IMG/VR virus record: IMGVR_UViG_3300005337_000028
Span: 1 to 43,581 of that record
DNA: 43,581 nucleotides
Source: a virus
Strand: one strand, 5' to 3'
Made by a program: the position numbers and the translations under genes. The notes beneath the pieces were generated by a model. That model was not told where the DNA came from. It ran no database searches and was given only the letters and a program-made list of their open reading frames with translations. This document shows, one piece after another, positions 1-43,581 of the stretch. The first letter of the stretch is position 1, and every line of letters begins with the position of its first letter.

Positions 1-110
1 TTTGCAGGAAGGCGATGCCGAACGCTTCAAGCGTGACTCGGCTGCGTTCAAGCAAAACATGGACGCGACGGTAGCGAAGAATCAACTCGCGCATCAGGAG
101 TACACCGACG
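1..110. repeat. Terminal direct repeat, left copy (circular overlap)
   Basis: These 110 bases are identical to the last 110 bases of the window (43472-43581) and lie inside one open reading frame that continues without a break across the junction. This shows that the contig closes into a circle, or that the phage is circularly permuted. The short length, close to common assembly k-mer sizes, and the mid-gene position suggest an assembly overlap rather than a biological terminal repeat. Confidence 0.95.
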
Positions 111-4279: not shown

Positions 4280-4561
4280 ATGAACTTCCTCGCATTGCTG
4301 ATGCAATACCTGCCGACCGTACTTGGTGTCGTGCAAACTGTCGAAACCATCTCGAACACGATGGCGAAGAAGCCGTCCGGCAAGGAAAAACTTGCAGCGG
4401 CTGTCGGCATGATTTCTGCTGTGGCTCCGGCGCTGAATGAATCGCTGTCGAATCAGGCGCCGAACGCCACGCACACCGAAAACGTCGTCAATGGAGTCGT
4501 TGCCATGGTCAATGCGCTTGGTGGCTTTGCGGATCAGCAGGATGCAGGAAGCGGCGCCTAA
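4280..4561 (+). CDS. Small protein with hydrophobic N-terminus at the end of the lysis cassette
   Basis: 93 aa with AAGGAG a few bases before the ATG. The first ~25 residues are hydrophobic (MNFLALLMQYLPTVLGVVQT), then a Lys-rich stretch (KKPSGKEK), then another Ala/Val-rich helical segment. It might be a small membrane-active protein, such as a second holin or antiholin, but I recognise no family. It is the last gene of the rightward late unit; its stop TAA overlaps the stop of the oppositely oriented Rieske gene by 4 bases, leaving no room for a terminator between them. Confidence 0.7.
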   Translation: MNFLALLMQYLPTVLGVVQTVETISNTMAKKPSGKEKLAAAVGMISAVAPALNESLSNQAPNATHTENVVNGVVAMVNALGGFADQQDAGSGA

Positions 4562-5517
4562 GTCGCATGCCAACCGGAGTCAAACGTACCGGTTGACTCC
4601 CTGAACCACCGCACGCGCTCCTCGTCCGTAGACAGCGCGTGCCCCCAGCCTTTCACGCGCGAGCATATTTCGGCGTCCTGCTGAAACACCATATGGTTGA
4701 ACGTACGCGCCTCCTCGTAGAACCATTTCATGTTTGGCGCATCGTGGCGCTGGCTGCCTGTGTACAGCCTGGACGTGAACGAAGTCCAGCCGCCAGACGG
4801 CAGGTAATGTTGTAGCGAGTACGTGAATCCGCCCAGCGATGACAGGCACGCGTAGGGGCTCAGGTACAGGTGGAAATATTCGTTCGGCTTGACGTTGCTG
4901 AATGACTTCGACAGCCGGTCCGTAAGCTCCAGCGTGCGCTTGTCCGTGATTTCGTATAGCGCGATGGAATGAGGCCCTTCACGCTGCATGTCGATGCGCT
5001 TGAGATTAACCTTGCCGAACGTATCGCGGTGCACCGTGGGAATGTGCATGTCCTCCAGCGTGTTCTCGATAGCCACGCGCCAGTCGCACGACATGGGAAA
5101 CGCATCGACCGAATGCCGCTTGTTGATCTTGATGGATTCCAGTATCGAACGGATGTTTCCCTCTGGCACCGGATAGCCGAGTTCGCCAGTTGACGCGAAC
5201 AGCCAGTCACCGACCCAGCATGTCATGTACTGATGGAACTTGGCTTTTTCTAGTTCGGCTTCGCTATAGTTCTCGCGGCATGGTACATTGGTCTGCCCAT
5301 TGCGGAATGACCAGCCGTGATAGGGACACGTCATTGGCGCGTTGCCGTGGTTGTCTTTGAAAATCTGTGTGCCGCGATGAGGGCACAGACCGTCAGTTAC
5401 GACGATATTTCCACCGTCTTTGTAGGCAACCATTTCGCTGCCGTCTATCGGGATGCGGATGTAATCGCCTGGATTTGCGAAATCTGAGCGGTGCCCGATT
5501 AGAAGCCAGTTATTCAT
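4558..5517 (-). CDS. Rieske non-heme iron oxygenase, alpha-subunit type
   Basis: 319 aa from the chosen ATG at 5517, which has AAGG nine bases upstream; an ATG two codons earlier (5523) and a TTG at 5535 are alternatives. The Rieske [2Fe-2S] cluster ligands are C45/H47 (CPHRG) and C64/H67 (CPYHGW). The catalytic domain shows the mononuclear iron site ENTLEDMHIPTVH, with D156 in the usual bridging position, H158 and H163 as ligands and D281 as the probable third ligand. The family uses O2 and electrons to hydroxylate, demethylate or desaturate small molecules. No ferredoxin or reductase gene is present, so host electron donors would be needed. It is the last gene of the metabolic cluster and is coupled to the 31-aa membrane microprotein. 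Substrate unknown. Confidence 0.93.
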   Translation of the reverse strand: MNNWLLIGHRSDFANPGDYIRIPIDGSEMVAYKDGGNIVVTDGLCPHRGTQIFKDNHGNAPMTCPYHGWSFRNGQTNVPCRENYSEAELEKAKFHQYMTCWVGDWLFASTGELGYPVPEGNIRSILESIKINKRHSVDAFPMSCDWRVAIENTLEDMHIPTVHRDTFGKVNLKRIDMQREGPHSIALYEITDKRTLELTDRLSKSFSNVKPNEYFHLYLSPYACLSSLGGFTYSLQHYLPSGGWTSFTSRLYTGSQRHDAPNMKWFYEEARTFNHMVFQQDAEICSRVKGWGHALSTDEERVRWFRESTGTFDSGWHAT

Positions 5518-5605
5518 CTTCATTGTCCTTATCAATAAAACACATCAAAACCATCATGCCGAATATCGCGAACAGAAGTCCTACGATAATCCAGCCGGAA
5601 CTCAT
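5510..5605 (-). CDS. 31-aa single-span membrane microprotein
   Basis: A small open frame whose ATG overlaps the stop of the acyltransferase gene (ATGA at 5605-5602) and whose TAA overlaps the Rieske gene start by 8 bases. It encodes a short N-terminus (MSSGW), one strongly hydrophobic span of about 19 residues (IIVGLLFAIFGMMVLMCFI) and an acidic tail (DKDNEDE). The overlaps on both sides and the clear membrane-segment composition support real translation. It might anchor or regulate an enzyme of the cluster, or simply keep ribosomes coupled to the Rieske gene. No family recognised. Confidence 0.6.
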   Translation of the reverse strand: MSSGWIIVGLLFAIFGMMVLMCFIDKDNEDE

Positions 5606-6204
5606 AATCGTTTTGCAGCCGGTGCGTACATCGTTGCGCCTGCGGGTACGTCTTTCACGATGACCGCGCCCGCTCCTATTCGTGCCCATGAGCCAATCTT
5701 CACGCCCGGCAAAACGCGCGCACCCGAACCGAAGAAAACGCCTTCTCCGACCTCGACGTTGCCGCAGATATCGACGTGCGAGGAGAGAGTGCAGTAGTCG
5801 CCCATCTTCACGTCATGGCCTACGGTAGCGTGCAGGTTTAGGTGGCAGAACTTGCCGACTTGCGCGTTGCTCGATATGACGGAGTACGGGCAGGTAATCG
5901 AGCCGATGCCGATTTTTCCGGTGGGTGGGCCGATGTTGAAAAGCATCGAATGGAATGTAGCGCCTCGCTTCGCTAGCCGAATGGCAACATTTTTGCGTCC
6001 GCTCGGATCGGCAATTGCAACCAGAACTTGCTCTCCCATCCTGTGTTCGTGCATGTCGATGGGTTCGCAATGAATATCCTCATCTGCTAAGAATTGATTC
6101 ACCGTGACGCCGCGAGTGCCAAGCCATGCAGCGATTTCCTTTGCGAAACCACCATGCCCTGCAATGATTACTTTGATTGGATTATTGAGCACTATATGCA
6201 CCAT
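5602..6204 (-). CDS. NeuD/PglD-like sugar acyltransferase (left-handed beta-helix)
   Basis: 200 aa from an ATG at 6204 that overlaps the SDR gene by 23 bases. The N-terminal Rossmann-like part begins IIAGHGGFAKEIAAW, as in the NeuD/PglD family. The C-terminal half is a run of hexapeptide repeats (for example CGNVEVGEGVFFGSGARV) that build a left-handed beta-helix binding an acyl-CoA. The sequence ATVGHDVKMGDYC holds the His-Asp pair (H130, D131) at the position of the catalytic base of these enzymes. Family members transfer acetyl groups to amino sugars or sialic acids. Here the neighbouring acyl carrier protein suggests that the donor may be another acyl group; that is inference. Confidence 0.9.
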   Translation of the reverse strand: MVHIVLNNPIKVIIAGHGGFAKEIAAWLGTRGVTVNQFLADEDIHCEPIDMHEHRMGEQVLVAIADPSGRKNVAIRLAKRGATFHSMLFNIGPPTGKIGIGSITCPYSVISSNAQVGKFCHLNLHATVGHDVKMGDYCTLSSHVDICGNVEVGEGVFFGSGARVLPGVKIGSWARIGAGAVIVKDVPAGATMYAPAAKRL

Positions 6205-6796
6205 CCACGGTAAGGATTGACCCGGTTGACCAGTCATTTTCGAGCAGGAACCGGATGGCCTGCACGATATGCTGCGGTTCGCCCATGCCGAGAGGATGTT
6301 TTGCGGCGTACTTCTCCGCGCCAGCCGCACCGATCTTCGCGGCGATCCTATCATTCATCGCGCCGGAGAATCCGCCTGCGCGGATGGCGTTAACACGGAT
6401 TTTCTTCGGCGCAAGTTCGATAGCGGCAGAGCGCACCATCGCTTCTGTTGCGCCCTTGGCCGCTGAATAGAGCGACATGCCGGGCACGCCGCAGACCGCA
6501 GCTACAGACGACATGGCGATGATTGAGCCATCTTCGCGGACCTTGCCGATGGAGGCTCGCGCAAGAATCTGCATCAACATTGTCACAGAACGAAAGGACA
6601 TATCGAAGCGCTCTGGCGATGCTAGTCCGAGTGGTGCAAGTATCTCCTTACCAGCCAAATGAATGACAGCATCGAACTCACCATCCGGCATTATCGGGTC
6701 TTCGTGCAGCCACCCCACAATCTCATGCTCTTTGTGCAGTGCCGCATAAATATGCATTCCGAGAGAGCCGCTTAGACCGGTTACGAGATATTTCAT
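6182..6796 (-). CDS. Short-chain dehydrogenase/reductase (FabG-like)
   Basis: 204 aa; the ATG at 6796 overlaps the KAS III stop (ATGA). NAD(P)-binding motif TGLSGSLG at residues 6-13, HLAG in place of the usual NNAG at 46-49, catalytic Ser in MSSVAA (S96/S97) and the YxxxK pair Y110/K114. It is shorter than typical 240-250-aa SDRs because of a compact region between residues 20 and 50. Lying between KAS III and the acyltransferase in an ACP-containing operon, it probably reduces a 3-oxoacyl-ACP to the 3-hydroxyacyl form, though sugar substrates are possible. Confidence 0.9.
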   Translation of the reverse strand: MKYLVTGLSGSLGMHIYAALHKEHEIVGWLHEDPIMPDGEFDAVIHLAGKEILAPLGLASPERFDMSFRSVTMLMQILARASIGKVREDGSIIAMSSVAAVCGVPGMSLYSAAKGATEAMVRSAAIELAPKKIRVNAIRAGGFSGAMNDRIAAKIGAAGAEKYAAKHPLGMGEPQHIVQAIRFLLENDWSTGSILTVDGAYSAQ

Positions 6797-7683
6797 GCGC
6801 CCTCCACAACTTTGCAAACCTTGAGCGGCCCGATGCCCATAACCGTAGCGCCCCATGACCATCCGGCACCAAATCCGACGAGACAGCATGCGACATGCCG
6901 CTTCAGCAATTCCGGCGTGATGCTCGAATCGCACATGAGTAGTGGGATCGACGCGCTGGAAGTATTTCCGTACTTCGCAATGTTCATCGGCATTTGATCG
7001 AGCGGAATGCTGCATTTTTTTGCCAAGTGCTTCAGTATCATTTCGTTTGCCTGATGAAATAGGAATGCTTCTACGTAGCGATCAGCGGTCGTAAATTCAA
7101 CCAGAGGCGGCACTGTGCGCAGTGCGAACGTCATGACCTCAGCGCCGTTCATGCGAATCTTCGGATCGGCGATCAGTTTGTCGTGACCGCTGCCGTCCGT
7201 GCCTAGTGCGAAATCATCGCGGTGCTTGGAGACGATGCCAGTGGCGGTCACGCAGTCACCGAACAGCATACCGGTCGGTTTGTCCCATAGCTCGACCATC
7301 TTGCTAACGGTATCACCGACGATCAGCAGGACATTTCCTTGTCCGGCGAATTTGTCCGCAATCGCCATACCGTATACGTACCCGCTGCATGCCATGTTCA
7401 CGTCGAATGCCGGACACTTGCAGCCGATCATGTCTGCGATGATGGCCGCGTTTCCTGGCATCGCGTTAGCTGGCGTTTGCGTAACGACGATGATTGCTGT
7501 GATGGAAGATGGCAGCCAGTGGAGTTCGCGCATCAACTCAATGGCAGCCATGTATCCGAGGTCTACGCTGTCCTGATCGATAGTTGCGACGCGGCGTTCT
7601 TTGATTCCAGTTGCCTTGACGAATGTTTCGTCCTCGTTGACAACGCGATTTGCTGGTACTGCGGCGACGATTCCGGCAATCAT
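6793..7683 (-). CDS. KAS III-like condensing enzyme (3-oxoacyl-ACP synthase III family)
   Basis: 296 aa, ATG overlapping the ACP stop. The thiolase-fold triad is complete: Cys99 in DVNMACSGYVYG, His210 in FLFHQAN and Asn240 in YGNTSSASIP. KAS III enzymes condense an acyl-CoA primer with malonyl-ACP to start an acyl chain. It is slightly shorter than the usual ~320 aa; the region between the first strand and the TGIKERR motif is reduced. The order ACP, KAS III, SDR in one coupled operon is that of a minimal acyl-building set. It may instead be one of the KAS III homologues that transfer acyl groups to other acceptors. Confidence 0.93.
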   Translation of the reverse strand: MIAGIVAAVPANRVVNEDETFVKATGIKERRVATIDQDSVDLGYMAAIELMRELHWLPSSITAIIVVTQTPANAMPGNAAIIADMIGCKCPAFDVNMACSGYVYGMAIADKFAGQGNVLLIVGDTVSKMVELWDKPTGMLFGDCVTATGIVSKHRDDFALGTDGSGHDKLIADPKIRMNGAEVMTFALRTVPPLVEFTTADRYVEAFLFHQANEMILKHLAKKCSIPLDQMPMNIAKYGNTSSASIPLLMCDSSITPELLKRHVACCLVGFGAGWSWGATVMGIGPLKVCKVVEGA

Positions 7684-7898
7684 AGAGCCGCCAGCCGTAG
7701 CACGTCACTAACCGTCTTGCACTCGGATACAGCGCTCCCGTTAACCACCTTGCCAGTCAGTTCATCGATGACGGCGATGGTGGCGATGTGGCAGAGCGAG
7801 TCCCACGGATCGAGGATTGTTTCCTCCGTGATCCCGTCGATTGGCTTGTCTAGCACGTCCGTTGCCAGCGTGTGCATCAGTAGTTCACGACTGCTCAT
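7680..7898 (-). CDS. Acyl carrier protein
   Basis: 72 aa. The phosphopantetheine attachment motif DSL is at residues 33-35 with Ser34 as the modified residue, in WDSLCHIATIAVIDE, the start of the characteristic helix II. Overall it is an acidic four-helix-type small protein. The ATG lies 14 bases inside the end of the glycosyltransferase gene, with GAGGAGAAAC upstream. It would carry the growing acyl chain for the KAS III and SDR encoded next to it, after activation by a host phosphopantetheinyl transferase; none is encoded here. Confidence 0.9.
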   Translation of the reverse strand: MSSRELLMHTLATDVLDKPIDGITEETILDPWDSLCHIATIAVIDELTGKVVNGSAVSECKTVSDVLRLAAL

Positions 7899-9708
7899 TC
7901 AGTTTCTCCTCGTACAGTTGCTCGAAGGCCGCTAGAAATTTTCCTTGGACTGCGGGCCATCCTTCACCGAAAAACTCATAATCCGTTGACATAATAGGGA
8001 TGAAATTGAAATCACCGGATTTAATAATTTCTACGGCCCCGTTAATAAATGACTTCACGTTTTGATGAATCAATCCCCCGCGTAAAAACTTCATCCGCCG
8101 AATCATCGAAGCATCCGACCTCTGGTGAATCTCATCCCCTTCCAGGGTAACAACCGGCACGCCATACAAAAAGCAGTCGATGATGCTATTCGTGCCACCG
8201 AACGGGAACGTAGACAGCGCGAGTTTGCACGAAGCCAGATTGTCGATGTACTCCTGATATGAGGAGCGAGGATGGACTACGCAATCTGGGAACCAGCGAT
8301 GCAAGTCCTTTGCGCAGACGTAGTGCGCCAAGCTTACTTGATTTGGGAAGAAATGGTATTCCACATTCTGGCAAGCCGACTTGATTTCCTTGAGAGCGGA
8401 TAAAAATGGCGGAATGATTTTGACGGCCATTGCCGGGATAGCGACACGGAGAACGGATCGAGCATCCGCGCCCATCGGTACAGGTACGGTGACGCCTTCG
8501 CGCGGAATATACCTTGCCGCCCCGACCGGAAGGCCAACGAGTCGTTCAGAATAGCGGTCTTGAACTCCGAACAAGTCTTCTTCACACGCCATGTAATCCA
8601 TGACGTTCGAGAATGTCGAGGCAGGGTGCCCAGGGCAGCAAACCTGTATCGGCGCCATCCTGATATTGGAAAGCGCGACGTACCAAGCGGCCATCCCAAC
8701 ACTCGGGTAGAACATAATATCCGGTTCTTCCGCATGAATTACCTCCATAATCGTTGAAATAGCTACCGCATCGCCGGGCAGCTTCACGCACTTATCGAAT
8801 ACCGCCATGCCGCCTTCATCTATCTCGGTATCACGGTAGATGCAGACGAGCCGAAAGCGTTCCTTGAGTTGTCGCATGCTAGGCGCATAGCAGCGAAACA
8901 TGGCGTGATGCGAGCCGAACCACTCGACAGGGACAACGATGGTAGGACGCTCCTTCCGAACGAGTTTGCGCGTGCATTCCCGCACTTCGGTACGCGAAAA
9001 CGCCAAGTCGCGCATCCATGTATTCACTATTTTTTTTGCTTCGTGCTTGTCTGGCGCATCCGTATACGTGCAGTGCATGTACAAGTCGCCAGCGCACAGC
9101 AGGAGCGCGTCAGGCAGCGGATGCGCGCACAGGATATGCCGTAGTGACATAAGATGCAGACGCCGCTTGTAGGCGCGCTCCGTATGAGTGACGCCGATTG
9201 CCAGCATGCCGATGATTGCGGCGTGAGTCGCTTCCGGTGCTGCTGCGTAGAGTACGTCGAAATCAACCTCGACTTCGGATTCTAGCGACCAGCAAAGGAG
9301 CAATTGCGCGATGGTATTTGCCGCGAACTGCATTTGTAATGGCTCATCTGCCGGTCGCGTGCCGATGGTGCTTAGAACATGATCCATCGTCTCGTAGGAG
9401 GATGCGCGGAATATCGAATGCAGCGTGGTGTGTTCGGCGCACAGCCTCACGAATCCGTCAGCGCTGATGAAAAACTTCGGATCGGTGAACAGTGACGTGA
9501 CCGCGCCAGCCAATCGCGTGTGCAGGATGCGCAATTGATCCTCGGTGCAGCCGAAGAATCCGGAGCCTTTGCGGATTCGCTGTAGGATGCCGTAAAGCTC
9601 TCTGGCGCATGCCTCGAAACTCTCCGGCGATCCGTCGCGCAGGTAGACTACGCGCTCGAATGGTTCGAGGTTCAGGGATTCTACGGGGGTGCCTGCGGGT
9701 TCAGTCAT
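7885..9708 (-). CDS. HMW1C/OGT-like glycosyltransferase (GT41 family)
   Basis: 607 aa. The N-terminal ~260 residues are all-helical, like the alpha domain of HMW1C-type enzymes or degenerate TPRs. The GT-B catalytic region contains MAPIQVCCPGHPASTFS (G360-H-P), matching the HMW1C/SPINDLY pattern before the donor site, and NSIIDCFLYGVPVVTLEGDE at about 507-526 followed by HQRSDASMIRR, matching the UDP-sugar-binding part. HMW1C enzymes add hexoses to Asn of adhesins in the cytoplasm; OGT relatives modify Ser/Thr. The target here is unknown: a host flagellin or adhesin, a phage virion protein or the ACP-linked product are all possible. Its ATG overlaps the upstream dioxygenase stop. Confidence 0.88.
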   Translation of the reverse strand: MTEPAGTPVESLNLEPFERVVYLRDGSPESFEACARELYGILQRIRKGSGFFGCTEDQLRILHTRLAGAVTSLFTDPKFFISADGFVRLCAEHTTLHSIFRASSYETMDHVLSTIGTRPADEPLQMQFAANTIAQLLLCWSLESEVEVDFDVLYAAAPEATHAAIIGMLAIGVTHTERAYKRRLHLMSLRHILCAHPLPDALLLCAGDLYMHCTYTDAPDKHEAKKIVNTWMRDLAFSRTEVRECTRKLVRKERPTIVVPVEWFGSHHAMFRCYAPSMRQLKERFRLVCIYRDTEIDEGGMAVFDKCVKLPGDAVAISTIMEVIHAEEPDIMFYPSVGMAAWYVALSNIRMAPIQVCCPGHPASTFSNVMDYMACEEDLFGVQDRYSERLVGLPVGAARYIPREGVTVPVPMGADARSVLRVAIPAMAVKIIPPFLSALKEIKSACQNVEYHFFPNQVSLAHYVCAKDLHRWFPDCVVHPRSSYQEYIDNLASCKLALSTFPFGGTNSIIDCFLYGVPVVTLEGDEIHQRSDASMIRRMKFLRGGLIHQNVKSFINGAVEIIKSGDFNFIPIMSTDYEFFGEGWPAVQGKFLAAFEQLYEEKLNEQS

Positions 9709-10430
9709 TTTTTGTCCAGTTGTTCCTGCAATTCTTTGAGCCTTGAAGTCCGCGAGCGGATGAACATGTTAGCGCGTTGCTCATCCTGAATATGATCGTT
9801 CGTTTTCCAAGTTCCGCGCATCAACTTTTTCCCGCTCGGATCGTCGGCAGGCTGGTAGATGATGTCGGTAAGAACGCGGTCTGGACCTTCTGTGTGCGCG
9901 TATGAACCGTGCCAGCATGCGGAGTGCATGAGCAGAACATCACCAGGATGCATGTCGATGGCATTGAGCCATTGGTTAGGGCCAAGCACCTCAGGATTCA
10001 ATTCGCCAGCATCCCCGAGATACCCCCATACATGGGTGGCACGGCGCAAATATAAACCTCCGTTTTCCATCTTTGATTCACTGAGTGCCACGAATGCCGA
10101 CAGTTTGCGGGGCCAGCCAATGTGATACGGCGTGTCCTGATGCAAAAACACGGCATCACGCGACTTCGCATCCTTGACCACGAACCGCTGATTGTAGAGC
10201 GCGATGTTCGGTCCGAATACCTCCTCCACGGCATCGAGAATGGACGGATGACGCGCGATCAGGGACAGTAGCGGCTGCATGCGATCATCGTTTATTGCGA
10301 TAGGATTGAACTCTGGAACACGATTCGGATCGGCTAACGATGCGTAGAGTGCCGCCCATGCGCTGACGGTATCGGAGTCGATCAGGCGACGGTGCAGCAA
10401 GTAGCCGTTTTGTTCGAATTCGTTGTTCAT
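9705..10430 (-). CDS. Phytanoyl-CoA dioxygenase-family Fe(II)/2-oxoglutarate oxygenase
   Basis: 241 aa from the ATG at 10430, which overlaps the stop of the small membrane gene upstream (ATGA). The double-stranded beta-helix iron site is visible: HxD at H97/D99 (FLHQDTPYH), the distal His in SACWHGSYAH (H174) and an Arg at R185 expected to bind 2-oxoglutarate. These enzymes hydroxylate aliphatic or acyl substrates. With the Rieske enzyme it gives the cluster two unrelated oxygenases. Substrate unknown; an acyl-ACP or a sugar/lipid moiety is plausible from context. Confidence 0.9.
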   Translation of the reverse strand: MNNEFEQNGYLLHRRLIDSDTVSAWAALYASLADPNRVPEFNPIAINDDRMQPLLSLIARHPSILDAVEEVFGPNIALYNQRFVVKDAKSRDAVFLHQDTPYHIGWPRKLSAFVALSESKMENGGLYLRRATHVWGYLGDAGELNPEVLGPNQWLNAIDMHPGDVLLMHSACWHGSYAHTEGPDRVLTDIIYQPADDPSGKKLMRGTWKTNDHIQDEQRANMFIRSRTSRLKELQEQLDKK

Positions 10431-10621
10431 TTGATAATCCCGGTAAGAGGATGCGGATGCTTCTTTCCATAGAAAGTGAGACCAATGCAAAGCACCGGAA
10501 TAATGAACAGATGAATCTCCCATTTCCAGTTCAACCATCCGTCCTTAAACGATTGATACCCAAAAAACCAAGTTGGGCATATCCACAGCGAAACATAGCG
10601 GGTACGAAATATCTTGATCAC
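10427..10621 (-). CDS. Small aromatic-rich membrane protein in the metabolic cluster
   Basis: 64 aa if translation starts at the GTG at 10621, which overlaps the methyltransferase stop (GTGA) and has AGGTGG five bases upstream; another GTG three codons earlier is possible. It is Trp/Phe-rich, with one clear membrane span near the C-terminus (HLFIIPVLCIGLTFYG) and possibly a second weaker one (VSLWICPTWFFGY). It ends in a His/Pro-rich tail. No family recognised. Overlaps on both sides tie it to the cluster. Confidence 0.65.
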   Translation of the reverse strand: MIKIFRTRYVSLWICPTWFFGYQSFKDGWLNWKWEIHLFIIPVLCIGLTFYGKKHPHPLTGIIK

Positions 10622-11175
10622 ACGATCCACCTAAATGTAGAAGTAACCTCATCGTCGGTTACATTTTTTTCTTTGTTGCAGTGCGCAATCCAAGAATAGT
10701 GTATGGGACACAAAAACCGATCCGACTCCAATATGTCAATCTGCAAGTCATCCCAATCGCGCATCAGCACTTTTATTCCATGCTCGGTGAATCGCCAGCA
10801 GTCGTTCGCGGGACCGTGGATACGTGCGTTGAATGGCGTCGATGCTACGAGCATCCCGCCCGGCTTCAGAACGCGTCGAATCTCTTTGATCGCGGCAAAC
10901 GGATCGAGTGCATGTTCGAGGACTTCGAGACACAGAACGGCATCGTAGAAACTGTTCGACAGCGGAGTTCGCTTCGTAATGTCGTATTGATACGTGCAAC
11001 CAGGAACAATGTCGAGCGTGTGCCATGTCGTATCGCCCTTGCGCATATGTGATTGCGGACCGATTTCTAGAACAGTAGCGCTCGCGGGTAAATGGAATAA
11101 CTTGGCGCGCGCGTTTTCGATATGTTCGCGTGCCATTTTCATGTAACGGTCGTCTATTGCGCTAACTTTTTTCAT
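10618..11175 (-). CDS. Class I SAM-dependent methyltransferase
   Basis: 185 aa from the ATG at 11175 (ATGA overlap with the 24-aa peptide before it). Motif I is VLEIGP at residues 35-40, an acidic residue after strand 2 is D55, and YDAVLCLEVLEHALDPFAAI at about 77-96 plus RVLKPGGMLVASTPF are the UbiE/Methyltransf_11-type motifs. These enzymes methylate small molecules or sugars with S-adenosylmethionine. As the first enzyme of the cluster it probably methylates the glycan, acyl or sugar product; a protein target is not excluded. Confidence 0.9.
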   Translation of the reverse strand: MKKVSAIDDRYMKMAREHIENARAKLFHLPASATVLEIGPQSHMRKGDTTWHTLDIVPGCTYQYDITKRTPLSNSFYDAVLCLEVLEHALDPFAAIKEIRRVLKPGGMLVASTPFNARIHGPANDCWRFTEHGIKVLMRDWDDLQIDILESDRFLCPIHYSWIAHCNKEKNVTDDEVTSTFRWIV

Positions 11176-11246
11176 TCCCTCATCCCCGGCAGTTCCTCGC
11201 AAAACGCGAGTAAGTCCAAAATGTCTGCGATTAGTGCGCGGATCAC
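11172..11246 (-). CDS. 24-aa coupling peptide ahead of the methyltransferase
   Basis: A GTG-started frame whose start overlaps the stop of the upstream 153-aa gene (GTGA, 11246-11243) and whose TGA overlaps the methyltransferase ATG (ATGA, 11175-11172). GGGAGAG stands six bases before the GTG. The peptide is a short amphipathic helix-like sequence (IRALIADILDLLAFCEE). It may be a real microprotein or mainly a device to keep ribosomes moving into the metabolic cluster. Confidence 0.45.
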   Translation of the reverse strand: MIRALIADILDLLAFCEELPGMRE

Positions 11247-30882: not shown

Positions 30883-31179
30883 ATGGGTATCGCCGTATCT
30901 GAGGGGAAGAATTACACGCGGTTGACTGCCAGTGGAAACATTTCGTGTGGCGCGGGTCTCAAGGGCCAGTTCTTCGGAATCTTGCCTACACAGTCGAGCA
31001 ACGCAAATATTCTCATCACCGATTTGGGAAATATAGTGCAGGGCAATGCCGCCATCATCATGAATACGATGAATATGACTGCTGGGCAATTCGTGCCATC
31101 CCCGTGCTCCTTCACAACTGGGCTTGGCGTCACAATCGGCGGCACCTGCGACGTAACGGTGTACTGGACGCCGACCTAA
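30883..31179 (+). CDS. Small probable virion or fibre-associated protein
   Basis: 98 aa, AGGGAG before the ATG. Beta-rich, Gly/Thr/Asn-rich (GNISCGAGLKGQFFGILP, SNANILITDLGNIVQG, GVTIGGTCDVTVYWTPT). Two or three Cys. Such sequences occur as decoration or receptor-associated proteins in phages. It overlaps the first LamG-like gene by one base and opens the cassette between portal and scaffold genes. Confidence 0.68.
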   Translation: MGIAVSEGKNYTRLTASGNISCGAGLKGQFFGILPTQSSNANILITDLGNIVQGNAAIIMNTMNMTAGQFVPSPCSFTTGLGVTIGGTCDVTVYWTPT

Positions 31180-31841
31180 TGCTGCACAATTGGGCGCTGC
31201 GGCGTGCCGTATCTAGTGGAGGGGGTGGCCCTCCTTCGGCCAACCAAGTAGCTTGGTTTCGCAAAAACACCGGCATTGTAGGCGCTGGTTTTTGCAGCCA
31301 GTGGACTGACCAGAGCGGATTGAATCATCACCTACTGCAAGCAACAGGTGCAAATCAGCCCAGTATTCCAGGTGATGGAACGCTGTTGTTTGATGGCGTG
31401 ATTCAGTTTATGAAGTGCGCTGGTTTTACGCTGATACAGCCAGAGACAGTTTATTTGCGGTTCAAACAAGTGACTTGGACCAGCAACGATTTCGTATTTG
31501 ATGGGGACTCGACAGCTACTGGTGCCCTAGCGCAGCGTGGTTCCACCCCGGGCCTAGAAATTGTGGCTGCCAACTCCGTGGCAAACAACACTGGTGTTGC
31601 GGTAAATACCTATGCTTCCGTGGCTTGTGTGTTCAATGGCGCTAGCAGCCTGATCCAGGTGAACAACAATGCTCCCACCACTGGCGACATTGGTGCGGGC
31701 AACATGGGCGGTTTTACCCTAGGCGCGATCGGCGCAAATATCCTGTTTGCCAATATCCAAGTGGCCGAGGTGATCATCTACAATGTTGCGCATAACCAGG
31801 CCACGCGTGATGCGATCATTGCCTATCTGAACACTTTGTGA
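31179..31841 (+). CDS. LamG-like (concanavalin A-fold) protein, copy 1
   Basis: 220 aa. Matches the jelly-roll lectin pattern: WTDQSGLNHHLLQATGANQPSI, GTLLFDGVIQFM near residues 46-90, then repeated beta strands with FDGD, and the last strand VAEVIIYNVAHNQATRDAIIAYL typical of Laminin_G_3 ends. Such domains bind carbohydrate. It is clearly related to the protein at 32983. The ATG overlaps the previous stop (TAATG). Probably a virion surface or host-recognition protein, inferred. Confidence 0.8.
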   Translation: MLHNWALRRAVSSGGGGPPSANQVAWFRKNTGIVGAGFCSQWTDQSGLNHHLLQATGANQPSIPGDGTLLFDGVIQFMKCAGFTLIQPETVYLRFKQVTWTSNDFVFDGDSTATGALAQRGSTPGLEIVAANSVANNTGVAVNTYASVACVFNGASSLIQVNNNAPTTGDIGAGNMGGFTLGAIGANILFANIQVAEVIIYNVAHNQATRDAIIAYLNTL

Positions 31842-32922: not shown

Positions 32923-32998
32923 ACCCTTGCTGGCAGTGTATGTGCCGCTCATACTTTTTTCCTGCTATTTGAGGGTCCAATCATGTCTACTGCCGTAG
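32900..32998 (+). CDS. Possible 32-aa hydrophobic peptide
   Basis: ATG at 32900 opens a 32-codon frame that is almost wholly hydrophobic (FPATLIPLLAVYVPLILFS), so it would be a single membrane span. There is no Shine-Dalgarno, and the end overlaps the next gene by 16 bases. It may be real or a by-product of the repeat copy it starts in. Confidence 0.25.
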   Translation: MNFPATLIPLLAVYVPLILFSCYLRVQSCLLP

Positions 32999-33666
32999 CT
33001 ACTCGCCGCATCGTGGGGAAATCGCATCCCCCATTTCAAAACATGATGGCGGCATGGTATCGGTATCGGTTGGGAGTGACAGCGGTAAATGGGGCGGCAT
33101 CGCGCTGGGAGGATGCGACCAATCAACTACGGCCACTGTTGCAAGCAACGGCTTCTGCGCGTCCAACCGTTCTCTCGGATGGTTCCCTGCTGTTCGATGG
33201 CTCGAACGACTACATGCAGGCGACATTTACGCTTAATCAGCCGTGTCTTATTGCATTGGCATATTCGCAAGTAACGTGGACTTCAGGGGATGTCATTTTC
33301 GACGGTTCAGCCGCCGATATGAAAGTCACCCAGACCAGCAGCAGCCCAACATTACAGGCGAACGCCGGTTCATCGCTTACTGCTGACAGTGCAATCGCCT
33401 TGAATGCCCGCGCGGTATCTGGTTTTTATGCAAGCGGCACCGCCTCTGCGTATGTTGCCTATGGTGGCGGGGCCAGATCACTGCAAACCGGCGATGCTGG
33501 CGCCAATAATCCAGGCGGTATCACCGTAGGAGCCGCACGTGCCGCAGCGAATTTTTCCAATATCATCGTTCGGGAGATTGTTGTCTATAGCGGCACGTTT
33601 ACCGGAGCGCAGCGATACATCATCAGCAAGTATCTGGCGCGTGTTGGGTCGGTGGGTGGAGTGTAA
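32983..33666 (+). CDS. LamG-like (concanavalin A-fold) protein, copy 2
   Basis: 227 aa; GAGGGTCC lies before the ATG. Paralogue of the 31179 gene: RWEDATNQLRPLLQATASARPTV, DGSLLFDGSNDYM, QVTWTSGDVIFDGS and a final IIVREIVVYSGTFTGAQRYI strand line up with copy 1. Carbohydrate-binding jelly-roll fold expected; likely virion-exposed. The two copies have diverged a lot outside the core, so the duplication is not recent, or they were acquired separately. Confidence 0.8.
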   Translation: MSTAVATRRIVGKSHPPFQNMMAAWYRYRLGVTAVNGAASRWEDATNQLRPLLQATASARPTVLSDGSLLFDGSNDYMQATFTLNQPCLIALAYSQVTWTSGDVIFDGSAADMKVTQTSSSPTLQANAGSSLTADSAIALNARAVSGFYASGTASAYVAYGGGARSLQTGDAGANNPGGITVGAARAAANFSNIIVREIVVYSGTFTGAQRYIISKYLARVGSVGGV

Positions 33667-35932: not shown

Positions 35933-37087
35933 ATGGGTCTGAACCAAATCGGGTATCAGGGCGGCAACCAACTTCGCCCGAGCATCAACCTGCAACAGCC
36001 GGGCGGGGGTCCGAACCTGACCGCACGCATGAATACCTCGTTCCCGGTCACCCTGTTGGCCGCGCAGGCGTTCGTGCTGCCTGCGGGTCAGTATCAGGTG
36101 AACGTGGGGCGCTACACCGACCTGCAATGGTACGATACCGTGTCCCTGCGGTGGCGTACCTACAACACGCAGCCGGGCCAAGCGGCTACCGTGTCCAGCG
36201 ACGGGCAGAATTTCCGTATCGCCAATACGACCGGCACGGCTATAGGCGCAGTTATCACCAACGTCGGCGCGAACCTAACCAACGGTTACAACACTGTCAC
36301 CGTCACCCCATCGTCCGGAAACTCGACGTGGGGCACGCTGGTGGGCGGATCGGTCAATACCACTGTTACCGTGACCACTGGTGGCAATTTCTCGCTGCCT
36401 CCGATCATCGTATGGCAGCCCGGCGCAAACCAGAGTTCCCCGTACCTGCAACCGACGTTCACCTGCAACCTGAATTCTAACGGCACGATCAACACCGTGT
36501 CCGTGGTGTACGGCGGCGCGGGTCTGGCTTCGGCGGGTACCATCCAGGCTCTGAACCAGCCGGGTGACAACTTCCCGGGTGGCGCGAACATCAGCCTGAA
36601 CCAGACGCTGACGAACTCCGGCAACCTGACCGCGATGTGGCCGCTGACGATGGGCAACACCGGCCTTACCGCCGTGCCCACCTTCACGTTCTCGCCGACC
36701 GGCCCCGCAGCAACCGCCGTTATGAACTTCGTGGTGTCGAACTTCACCGTGACGACTGCGGGCGGCAATCTCGGTGTATCGCAACCCATCGCGATCAACA
36801 CCGCGAATGGTCTTGTCACCGCTACGCAGAACGCCGCGCTGACCGGTTCGGACTACGCGCAAGGTCTGGCGATGCCGCGTCCGGCGTGGATTACCGCGAA
36901 TTCCGGCGCGAACGCAAACGCGAACTCGAACGTCGGCACCGTGATTCAGGATGCGGGGTTCCACTTTCAGGCGGTGCCGGTGCTGTACGCCACTCCGGCG
37001 AACTCGAACGGCTCGATTGTTTCACTGCCGGTTCTGGCCGCGACTGTCGGCGGCATCACCGACACTACCTACCTGCAACCCGTCTAA
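35933..37087 (+). CDS. Head decoration/structural protein, Thr/Asn/Gly-rich
   Basis: 384 aa with GGGGAG before the ATG, 12 bases after the capsid gene. Beta-rich and low in charge, with long Thr/Val/Asn/Gly runs (NTTVTVTTGGNFSLPPI, NLTAMWPLTMGNTGL) and an Asn/Ala repeat near residue 325-335. Such proteins coat the capsid or join it in other podophages. No known family recognised; the role is inferred from position and composition. Confidence 0.75.
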   Translation: MGLNQIGYQGGNQLRPSINLQQPGGGPNLTARMNTSFPVTLLAAQAFVLPAGQYQVNVGRYTDLQWYDTVSLRWRTYNTQPGQAATVSSDGQNFRIANTTGTAIGAVITNVGANLTNGYNTVTVTPSSGNSTWGTLVGGSVNTTVTVTTGGNFSLPPIIVWQPGANQSSPYLQPTFTCNLNSNGTINTVSVVYGGAGLASAGTIQALNQPGDNFPGGANISLNQTLTNSGNLTAMWPLTMGNTGLTAVPTFTFSPTGPAATAVMNFVVSNFTVTTAGGNLGVSQPIAINTANGLVTATQNAALTGSDYAQGLAMPRPAWITANSGANANANSNVGTVIQDAGFHFQAVPVLYATPANSNGSIVSLPVLAATVGGITDTTYLQPV

Positions 37088-42993: not shown

Positions 42994-43581
42994 TGGATCA
43001 ACTCGCTCCCGGCGCTGCCGATATCGTAGGCGCAAACCCGCTGCCCCTGCTGCCGGGTGCGGGCGGCATGCGCACGGCTACCGCTGGACCAGGGCCGGGG
43101 CCGATTGCGCCGCCGATGGTAGGCGATCCCCCGATGGCTGGGGGCGCCATTGCTGGCGGCATGCCTCCGCAGTTTGCCGTGCAGATGGCGGCAGAGCAGG
43201 CGAAGAAGGATGCCGCCCTTAAAACCATCCAAAATGCTGCATCGCAGCGAGATATTGCGCAGGCACCGATTGCAGAGCGCATGAAGGAGGTTCCGAAGCC
43301 TGCCGATCCGGTCTACACAAAATTACCGGAAGCGCCGCGTTCGCTGCCGATGTCGCCGCAGGAAATGAGCGACTTCACATCTACCATGTTCGCGCTGTCC
43401 GTGATTGGTGGCGCGATGACGCGCACGCCAATGGCAACGGCGATGAACGCGTTTTCTAGCGCGCTGAAAGGTTTGCAGGAAGGCGATGCCGAACGCTTCA
43501 AGCGTGACTCGGCTGCGTTCAAGCAAAACATGGACGCGACGGTAGCGAAGAATCAACTCGCGCATCAGGAGTACACCGACG
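42993..43581 (+). CDS. Internal/ejection-type virion protein, N-terminal part (continues at base 2)
   Basis: ATG at 42993, sharing one base with the stop of the 570-aa gene. The frame stays open to the end of the window and continues in the same phase at base 2 (the last 110 bases repeat the first 110); the whole protein is about 531 aa. The part here has a flexible Gly/Pro/Met-rich N-terminus (GPGPGPIAPPMVGDPPMAGG pattern), then a helical Lys/Ala-rich stretch, then SPQEMSDFTSTMFALSVIGGAM, which might cross a membrane. Confidence 0.78.
   Translation, partial: MDQLAPGAADIVGANPLPLLPGAGGMRTATAGPGPGPIAPPMVGDPPMAGGAIAGGMPPQFAVQMAAEQAKKDAALKTIQNAASQRDIAQAPIAERMKEVPKPADPVYTKLPEAPRSLPMSPQEMSDFTSTMFALSVIGGAMTRTPMATAMNAFSSALKGLQEGDAERFKRDSAAFKQNMDATVAKNQLAHQEYTD
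43472..43581. repeat. Terminal direct repeat, right copy
   Basis: Identical to bases 1-110. The internal virion protein gene stays in frame across the junction, confirming circular closure of the contig. Confidence 0.95.

Follow-up and report, generated by a model that had tools for sequence, protein, structure and literature searches.

The closest described counterparts of the locus studied here are the modified-viosamine islands of bacteria, namely the vio island of Pseudomonas syringae, orfA-orfN of P. aeruginosa PAK and a locus of Burkholderia glumae BGR1. In P. syringae, an island with vioS, acp, vioR, vioB and vioM makes N-(3-hydroxybutyryl)-2-O-methyl-viosamine on flagellin; vioR, vioB and vioM, whose mutants have been analysed, are required for this product (PMC3927599). 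Our locus is a ten-gene cassette in the IMG/VR phage record IMGVR_UViG_3300005337_000028, which was analysed over its full 43,581 bp (the window). It shares with these islands an acyl carrier protein (ACP), a beta-ketoacyl-ACP synthase III (KAS III), a short-chain dehydrogenase/reductase (SDR) and a VioB-type acyltransferase; a Rieske oxygenase comes next in order in B. glumae and Ramlibacter, and a methyltransferase is present in P. syringae. The phage cassette differs in lacking an adjoining vioA or flagellin gene (its flanks are phage lysis-side and early genes), in having a glycosyltransferase (GT) of the HMW1C type rather than VioT or a tetratricopeptide-repeat (TPR) GT, and in adding a PhyH-family oxygenase and two small membrane proteins. 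We read the operon as a phage protein-glycosylation cassette that puts an acylated amino-sugar onto protein (probability roughly 0.55), for which we infer the substrates, the reaction order and the protein acceptor; the product would most likely be an N-(3-hydroxyacyl)-4-amino-6-deoxysugar on protein. The core idea of an earlier first-pass annotation, an acyl-decorated sugar attached via a glycosyltransferase, gains support from the gene families and from the likeness to flagellin loci.

Other known systems resemble the cassette in part. HMW1C and protein N-glucosyltransferase (NGT) proteins are like the phage GT in the HMW1C_N domain, full-length sequence and fold, whereas no adhesin gene adjoins the phage GT. 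In the Mimivirus viosamine pathway (UDP-2-O-Me-Vio4NAc, PMC10117803), virus enzymes likewise make and use an N-acylated viosamine, but this is a giant virus of amoebae, the acyl group is acetyl rather than an ACP-borne hydroxyacyl, and the likeness drawn here is one of pathway. Phage modification of O-antigen or lipopolysaccharide (LPS), such as gtr-type conversion or the LPS genes of pelagimyophages (PMC7029224), also relies on phage sugar and GT genes thought to change the surface, whereas the window's cassette combines a cytoplasmic protein GT with a fatty-acid-type acyl module and has no membrane GT or flippase; none of the gtr-type set (GtrA flippase, GtrB bactoprenol GT, membrane Gtr) was found among the ten cassette proteins. 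Comparison with the defence systems of PADLOC-DB gave no specific match, only weak generic methyltransferase matches. The first-pass annotation knew of no described phage system with this full set of genes; among open-licence papers we too found no description of such a cassette in phages, but the set is not unique, and versions of it lie on many undescribed viral contigs. Virus- or phage-encoded glycosylation is a known kind of biology. What is new here, judged by sequence comparison, is that the cassette belongs to a family of such phage cassettes that recur around a GT of the HMW1C type, and the case for novelty would be stronger if the acceptor proves to be the virion.

The cassette and its phage genome

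The cassette consists of ten co-oriented minus-strand genes (4558-11175) plus a 24-codon leader, with nearly all junctions overlapping by 3 to ~20 nt. The ten overlapping genes that had been described after a 24-aa peptide were all found with the types given there, and Pfam and PDB matches back the family assignments. The features are as follows, in the order of transcription, with the genome ends last.

11172..11246, minus strand: 24-codon leader or putative coupling peptide, GTG start, with 4-nt overlaps with the preceding gene and the methyltransferase gene (from sequence)
10618..11175, minus strand: S-adenosylmethionine (SAM)-dependent methyltransferase, 185 aa (Methyltransf_11, 4.5e-11)
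10427..10621, minus strand: hydrophobic, membrane-like protein, 64 aa, GTG start, no family
9705..10430, minus strand: PhyH-family Fe(II)/2-oxoglutarate oxygenase, 241 aa (PhyH, 2.7e-14; PDB 6zyk, 2.6e-8)
7885..9708, minus strand: HMW1C/NGT-type (GT41-like) glycosyltransferase, 607 aa (HMW1C_N, 1.4e-12; PDB 8p0o/3q3e, 1e-63 to 1e-70)
7680..7898, minus strand: ACP, 72 aa (DSL phosphopantetheine motif, Ser34; likeness to the B. glumae ACP)
6793..7683, minus strand: KAS III, 296 aa (Pfam, 8.5e-22; PDB 4efi, 9e-51)
6182..6796, minus strand: short SDR, 3-ketoacyl reductase-like, 204 aa (adh_short_C2, 1.2e-26)
5602..6201, minus strand: NeuD/PglD/VioB-type left-handed beta-helix N-acyltransferase, ~199 aa (TIGR03570, 4.5e-43; PDB matches)
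5510..5605, minus strand: hydrophobic membrane microprotein, 31 aa (sequence only)
4558..5517, minus strand: Rieske non-haem iron oxygenase, 319 aa, last gene (Rieske, 1.5e-14; Ring_hydroxyl_A, 3.5e-7)
1..110 and 43472-43581, no strand: left and right copies of a 110-bp direct terminal repeat (sequence identity)

The first and last 110 bp of the record are identical, and because of this direct terminal repeat at both ends the window is a complete, closed phage genome; the cassette segment therefore belongs to the phage. The window encodes terminase, portal, major head protein, tail protein and endolysin/lysis genes, and no tyrosine integrase was found in it by Pfam. The cassette sits between lysis-side genes (ending at 4561) and early-region genes (11243 onward), as the last part of an early-strand operon that converges with the late genes, and its Rieske gene overlaps the convergent late/lysis-side gene at 4280-4561 by 4 nt. 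That the assembly wrongly joined a bacterial glycan locus to a phage might be suspected from the closest bacterial homologues of the acyl module, which are flagellar-locus genes. We regard such a join as extremely improbable, given the closed genome with its 110-bp repeat, the similar GC content (53.8% in the cassette vs 56.1% elsewhere in the window), the 4-nt overlap into the flanking phage gene, the related cassettes at the equivalent slot in many independent viral contigs, and the virus-only GT clade described below.

Enzymes of the cassette and their bacterial relatives

The B. glumae BGR1 locus, reached via KAS III, contains flagellin, fliD, fliT, a TPR GT, vioA, KAS, ACP, a second KAS, SDR, acyltransferase and Rieske genes. 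The phage ACP, KAS, SDR, acyltransferase and Rieske proteins share 34-45% identity with their counterparts there and are encoded in identical order, which bears out the link to modified-viosamine flagellin-glycan loci drawn in the first-pass annotation. A locus in a Ramlibacter metagenome-assembled genome has the order KAS-ACP-KAS-SDR-acyltransferase-Rieske-aminotransferase, and a search for the Rieske gene in 399 Burkholderiales genomes returned only this already-known locus. In phylogenetic trees, the window's KAS, SDR and Rieske proteins group with bacterial flagellin-locus proteins and with those of the viral cassettes called type A below (moderate support), apart from most proteins of the type B viral cassettes; their exact placement is unsure because the window's branches are long. 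Taking these sequence relationships together, the acyl module shares ancestry with bacterial flagellin-glycan genes. We note that the second B. glumae KAS (L006:19947-21042, in the BGR1 locus) is split over two frames and missing from the gene table, as a pseudogene or through a sequencing error.

Pfam supports the methyltransferase, PhyH, HMW1C_N, KAS III (N and C), adh_short_C2, Hexapep and Rieske/Ring_hydroxyl_A calls; the ACP is listed as the sole enzyme call with no Pfam match, and it keeps the D-S-L motif and has 45% identity over 40 aa to the ACP of the B. glumae flagellin locus. KAS III has its catalytic Cys99, His210 and Asn240 (invariant in the alignment). PhyH retains HxD (97-99) and the distal His, and the Rieske protein, 36% identical to the one encoded next to flagellin in B. 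glumae, retains both cluster motifs (CxH...CxxH), the iron ligands His158/His163 and the downstream Asp, each of which the B. glumae enzyme also has; as in B. glumae, the cassette has no reductase partner for it. The NeuD-type enzyme scores 147 bits against TIGR03570, just under the cut-off of 161, has beta-helix repeats, a PglD_N-like domain and the catalytic His (in VGHD), and finds perosamine N-acetyltransferase and VioB among its structural matches (PDB 4m9c, 4ea7, 7txp). The methyltransferase is a candidate sugar O-methyltransferase that would be a functional analogue of VioM, and for the 64-aa membrane-like protein no relative or family was found. The SDR keeps its Gly-rich loop and Ser97-Tyr110-Lys114 but is shortened, with ~20-50 residues absent between beta-2 and beta-4 and the first Rossmann half cut down; its model (predicted local distance difference test, pLDDT, 77.6) matches NAD(P)-bound reductases in Foldseek at TMq 0.71-0.86, and its activity appears plausible, if the least certain among the cassette enzymes. 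The first-pass annotation had judged the active sites intact in the families where it could place them, and the motifs are indeed present in nearly all of the enzymes; the reservations are the shortened SDR and, in the GT, a donor-motif Asn replaced by Gly. Destroyed active sites, which it had named as evidence that would tell against its reading, were seen neither in the motifs nor in the GT and SDR models.

The AlphaFold model of the GT (pLDDT 80.6) matches AaNGT (template modelling score, TM, 0.86) and ApHMW1C over the full length, with TM 0.83-0.87 across these matches. Identity to HMW1C/NGT proteins is 25-37%, and equivalents of the catalytic-site His and Lys are aligned. The GT reads FPFGGTN vs FPFGNTN of the HMW1C donor-site motif, with the Gly also found in aligned viral GTs, and HAMFRCY vs HSIYRTH in HMW1C/NGT. 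In the GT tree, 8 viral rows are split from 7 bacterial rows with a Shimodaira-Hasegawa-like approximate likelihood ratio test (SH-aLRT) value of 96, and the window lies at the base of the viral side; this virus-only clade rests on few bacterial rows (7). Against the flagellin-locus TPR GT, identity is 24% across the catalytic part. Among the viral structures of BFVD there was no full-length GT match (best TMq 0.38), and none of the named phages searched with the GT matched. As a side observation, many E. coli/Salmonella plasmids carry HMW1C-like GTs labelled 'cobalt ABC transporter permease', which is likely a misannotation.

Related cassettes in other viruses

Scans of IMG/VR contigs with alignment-based queries (scans with the single GT and KAS proteins were unsuccessful) identified ~17 other distinct virus contigs with the window's GT type, corresponding to 19 loci, of which L058/L061 overlap and L035/L171 come from one sample. 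A DegT aminotransferase is found in 14 of the 19 GT loci and an RmlB-type dehydratase in 8, and the GT-bearing contigs usually also carry an acyltransferase. For the viral aminotransferase, the best NCBIfam model is DesI (dTDP-4-dehydro-6-deoxyglucose aminotransferase; 1.9e-43, below the cut-off). The product of DesI is dTDP-4-amino-4,6-dideoxyglucose.

The cassettes fall into several sets. Those of type A (L033, L034, L035, L036, L037, L159) have GT, KAS and SDR, and mostly ACP, acyltransferase, Rieske and DegT aminotransferase genes. In a second set (L160-L164, L171), genes for the GT and an acyltransferase are accompanied by those for an aminotransferase and an RmlB-type dehydratase. L160-L162 have, in addition, an AMP-ligase, an ACP, a GFO/IDH oxidoreductase and a GT2 protein, which Pfam identified in L161 and which were assigned in L160 and L162 from their position and sequence likeness. 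Type B (12 loci in two groups of near-copies) has acyltransferase-ACP-KAS-SDR-Rieske without a GT, among tail-fibre-like genes. The integrase-bearing phage G686 (L154:11809-13705; L153:14679-15818) has a DegT aminotransferase and the acyl module among tail-fibre genes, together with genes that resemble those for GDP-mannose dehydratase and epimerase/GDP-fucose synthase (names given from sequence likeness alone). Integrases are also present in G730 and in relatives of type B. In L166 (5629-11620), GT and RmlB lie inside the late operon, directly after the major head protein. On L166 and on one contig each of type A and type B, PHROGs identified portal, terminase, tail or head proteins.

The closest whole-genome terminase relatives of the window's phage, MW202753 and MW202825, are without the cassette. 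Given its varied placement and its absence from these nearest relatives, the cassette is most likely a recurrent, accessory and mobile element. Nor did 31 records of terminase relatives yield the cassette KAS; most of these are partial, such that this empty result alone shows nothing. A DNA-level search of 50,697 phage records gave no match. In MW202753 the equivalent place holds a methyltransferase that is unrelated to that of the cassette, and Rieske/KAS matches in Acinetobacter, Listeria and Staphylococcus 'phage' records look like bacterial DNA and were not used.

These sister cassettes bear on two other readings of the operon. VioB/NeuD-type enzymes and acylated amino-sugars are also found in O-antigens. 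The product might then decorate LPS, capsule or lipid, the HMW1C-like protein being a remote homologue with a non-protein acceptor, as the GT2 domain added in some sister cassettes and the known phage O-chain modification genes (PMC7029224) would allow; we consider this unlikely, since by Pfam the cassette has neither a flippase nor a polymerase nor a prenyl-phosphate sugar transferase, and the GT is NGT-like over its full length in both sequence and fold. Less likely still is that the product is not a glycan but a diffusible small molecule, such as a signal or toxin: the operon has no thioesterase or amide synthase, and its GT, its NeuD-type enzyme and the sugar genes of the sister cassettes point to a nucleotide sugar. 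The cassette families do match natural-product enzyme types, as ACP, KAS III, SDR, oxygenases and methyltransferases also build natural products.

Several further observations were made in these genomes. In L161:12852-18922 (also in L160 and L162), the GT is followed by AMP-ligase, GFO/IDH, ACP, a 737-aa GT2-radical SAM fusion and a TylF-like methyltransferase, which look like an alternative acyl module. A conserved protein of ~150-170 aa with no Pfam family (L034:9261-9779, with homologues in L159, L160 and L167) adjoins the GT or aminotransferase in several cassettes and is absent from the window. The L166 phage contig is filed under IMG id 2830675671, which appears to be that of an isolate genome. 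In the window, two similar LamG-like-looking proteins (30945-31841 and 32983-33666) are encoded between the portal and major head genes, and the second matches a PHROG without assigned function.

Proposed mechanism, acceptor and meaning

In the proposed protein-glycosylation pathway, ACP, KAS III and SDR would produce a short 3-hydroxyacyl-ACP (3-hydroxybutyryl by analogy), and the NeuD/VioB-type enzyme would transfer the acyl to a nucleotide-linked 4-amino-4,6-dideoxyhexose at its amino group. Hydroxylation would be due to the Rieske and PhyH oxygenases and methylation to the methyltransferase, and the HMW1C-type GT would then attach the finished sugar to a protein in the infected cell's cytoplasm. 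For the sugar, most of the sister phages bring an aminotransferase of their own, and some a dehydratase, while the window's phage would draw its nucleoside diphosphate (NDP)-amino-sugar from the host.

A number of observations weigh against this reading. Neither an aminotransferase nor a 4,6-dehydratase was found in the window (tblastn with B. glumae VioA, the viral aminotransferase and RmlB), both of which are present in sister viral cassettes; the NDP-amino-sugar must therefore come from the host, or a host pool be re-acylated. The GT is without the HMW1C donor-site Asn and scores 285 bits vs the NGT equivalog cut-off of 1000 (NF049992), and its donor and acceptor may therefore differ. The cassette opposes the late-gene strand, tail to tail, in the window, L033, L034, L036, L159, L160, L161 and L060, and because it lies mostly on this strand a role in modifying the virion is less natural. 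An excess of N-X-S/T sequons in structural proteins did not discriminate: the late protein at 35933-37087 has 14 sequons vs 7.8 expected (p ~0.01, uncorrected), and the same excess is seen in the cassette-less relative L002 (14477-16081; 33 vs 17 expected).

As for the acceptor, a virion protein is slightly favoured, at just short of even odds, because elsewhere parts of the cassette lie among head (L166) or tail-fibre (type B) genes; the decoration of Mimivirus fibrils with 2-O-Me-Vio4NAc (PMC10117803) was also counted toward this lean. Host flagellin or another surface protein is possible but doubtful as the acceptor, and the remainder goes to other targets. The first-pass annotation had named both a host surface structure and the virion without choosing between them. 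With the same chemistry acting on host flagellin, pilin or adhesin, a viosamine-type glycan of the host would be remodelled during infection, and motility changed or rival phages that bind flagella or glycans excluded. This would suit the homology and collinearity of the acyl module with flagellin-glycan loci, the absence of sugar-making genes from the window (expected if a host dTDP-viosamine pool is re-acylated), the position of the cassette at the close of the early-strand operon, convergent with the late genes, and the integrases of G730 and the type B relatives, phages that would profit from lysogenic conversion. However, the search for an integrase in the window found none, and changing flagellin late in infection would bring a lytic phage little; some cassettes lie inside head or tail-fibre gene blocks, and the GT belongs to the virus clade rather than to the flagellin-locus TPR GT family (24% in the catalytic part).

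More broadly, the cassettes might represent a widespread, undescribed class of phage-encoded protein glycosylation, in which exchangeable cassettes with a virus-specific HMW1C-type GT clade and swappable acyl modules (KAS/SDR/Rieske or AMP-ligase/ACP/GFO-IDH) place lipid-like sugars on the phages' own virion proteins, a proposal that we hold tentatively and rate as somewhat short of probable. The recurrence in otherwise unrelated phages with differing acyl modules makes the acceptor question directly testable, and the findings also suggest an exchange of flagellin-glycan genes between bacteria and phages. Should our reading hold, phages would produce rare acylated sugars and attach them to proteins by means of a cytoplasmic enzyme of the HMW1C type. 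Such a layer of phage biology has gone unrecognised; it could influence adsorption, superinfection or the stability of virions, and it would offer new glycosyltransferases that use unusual donors.

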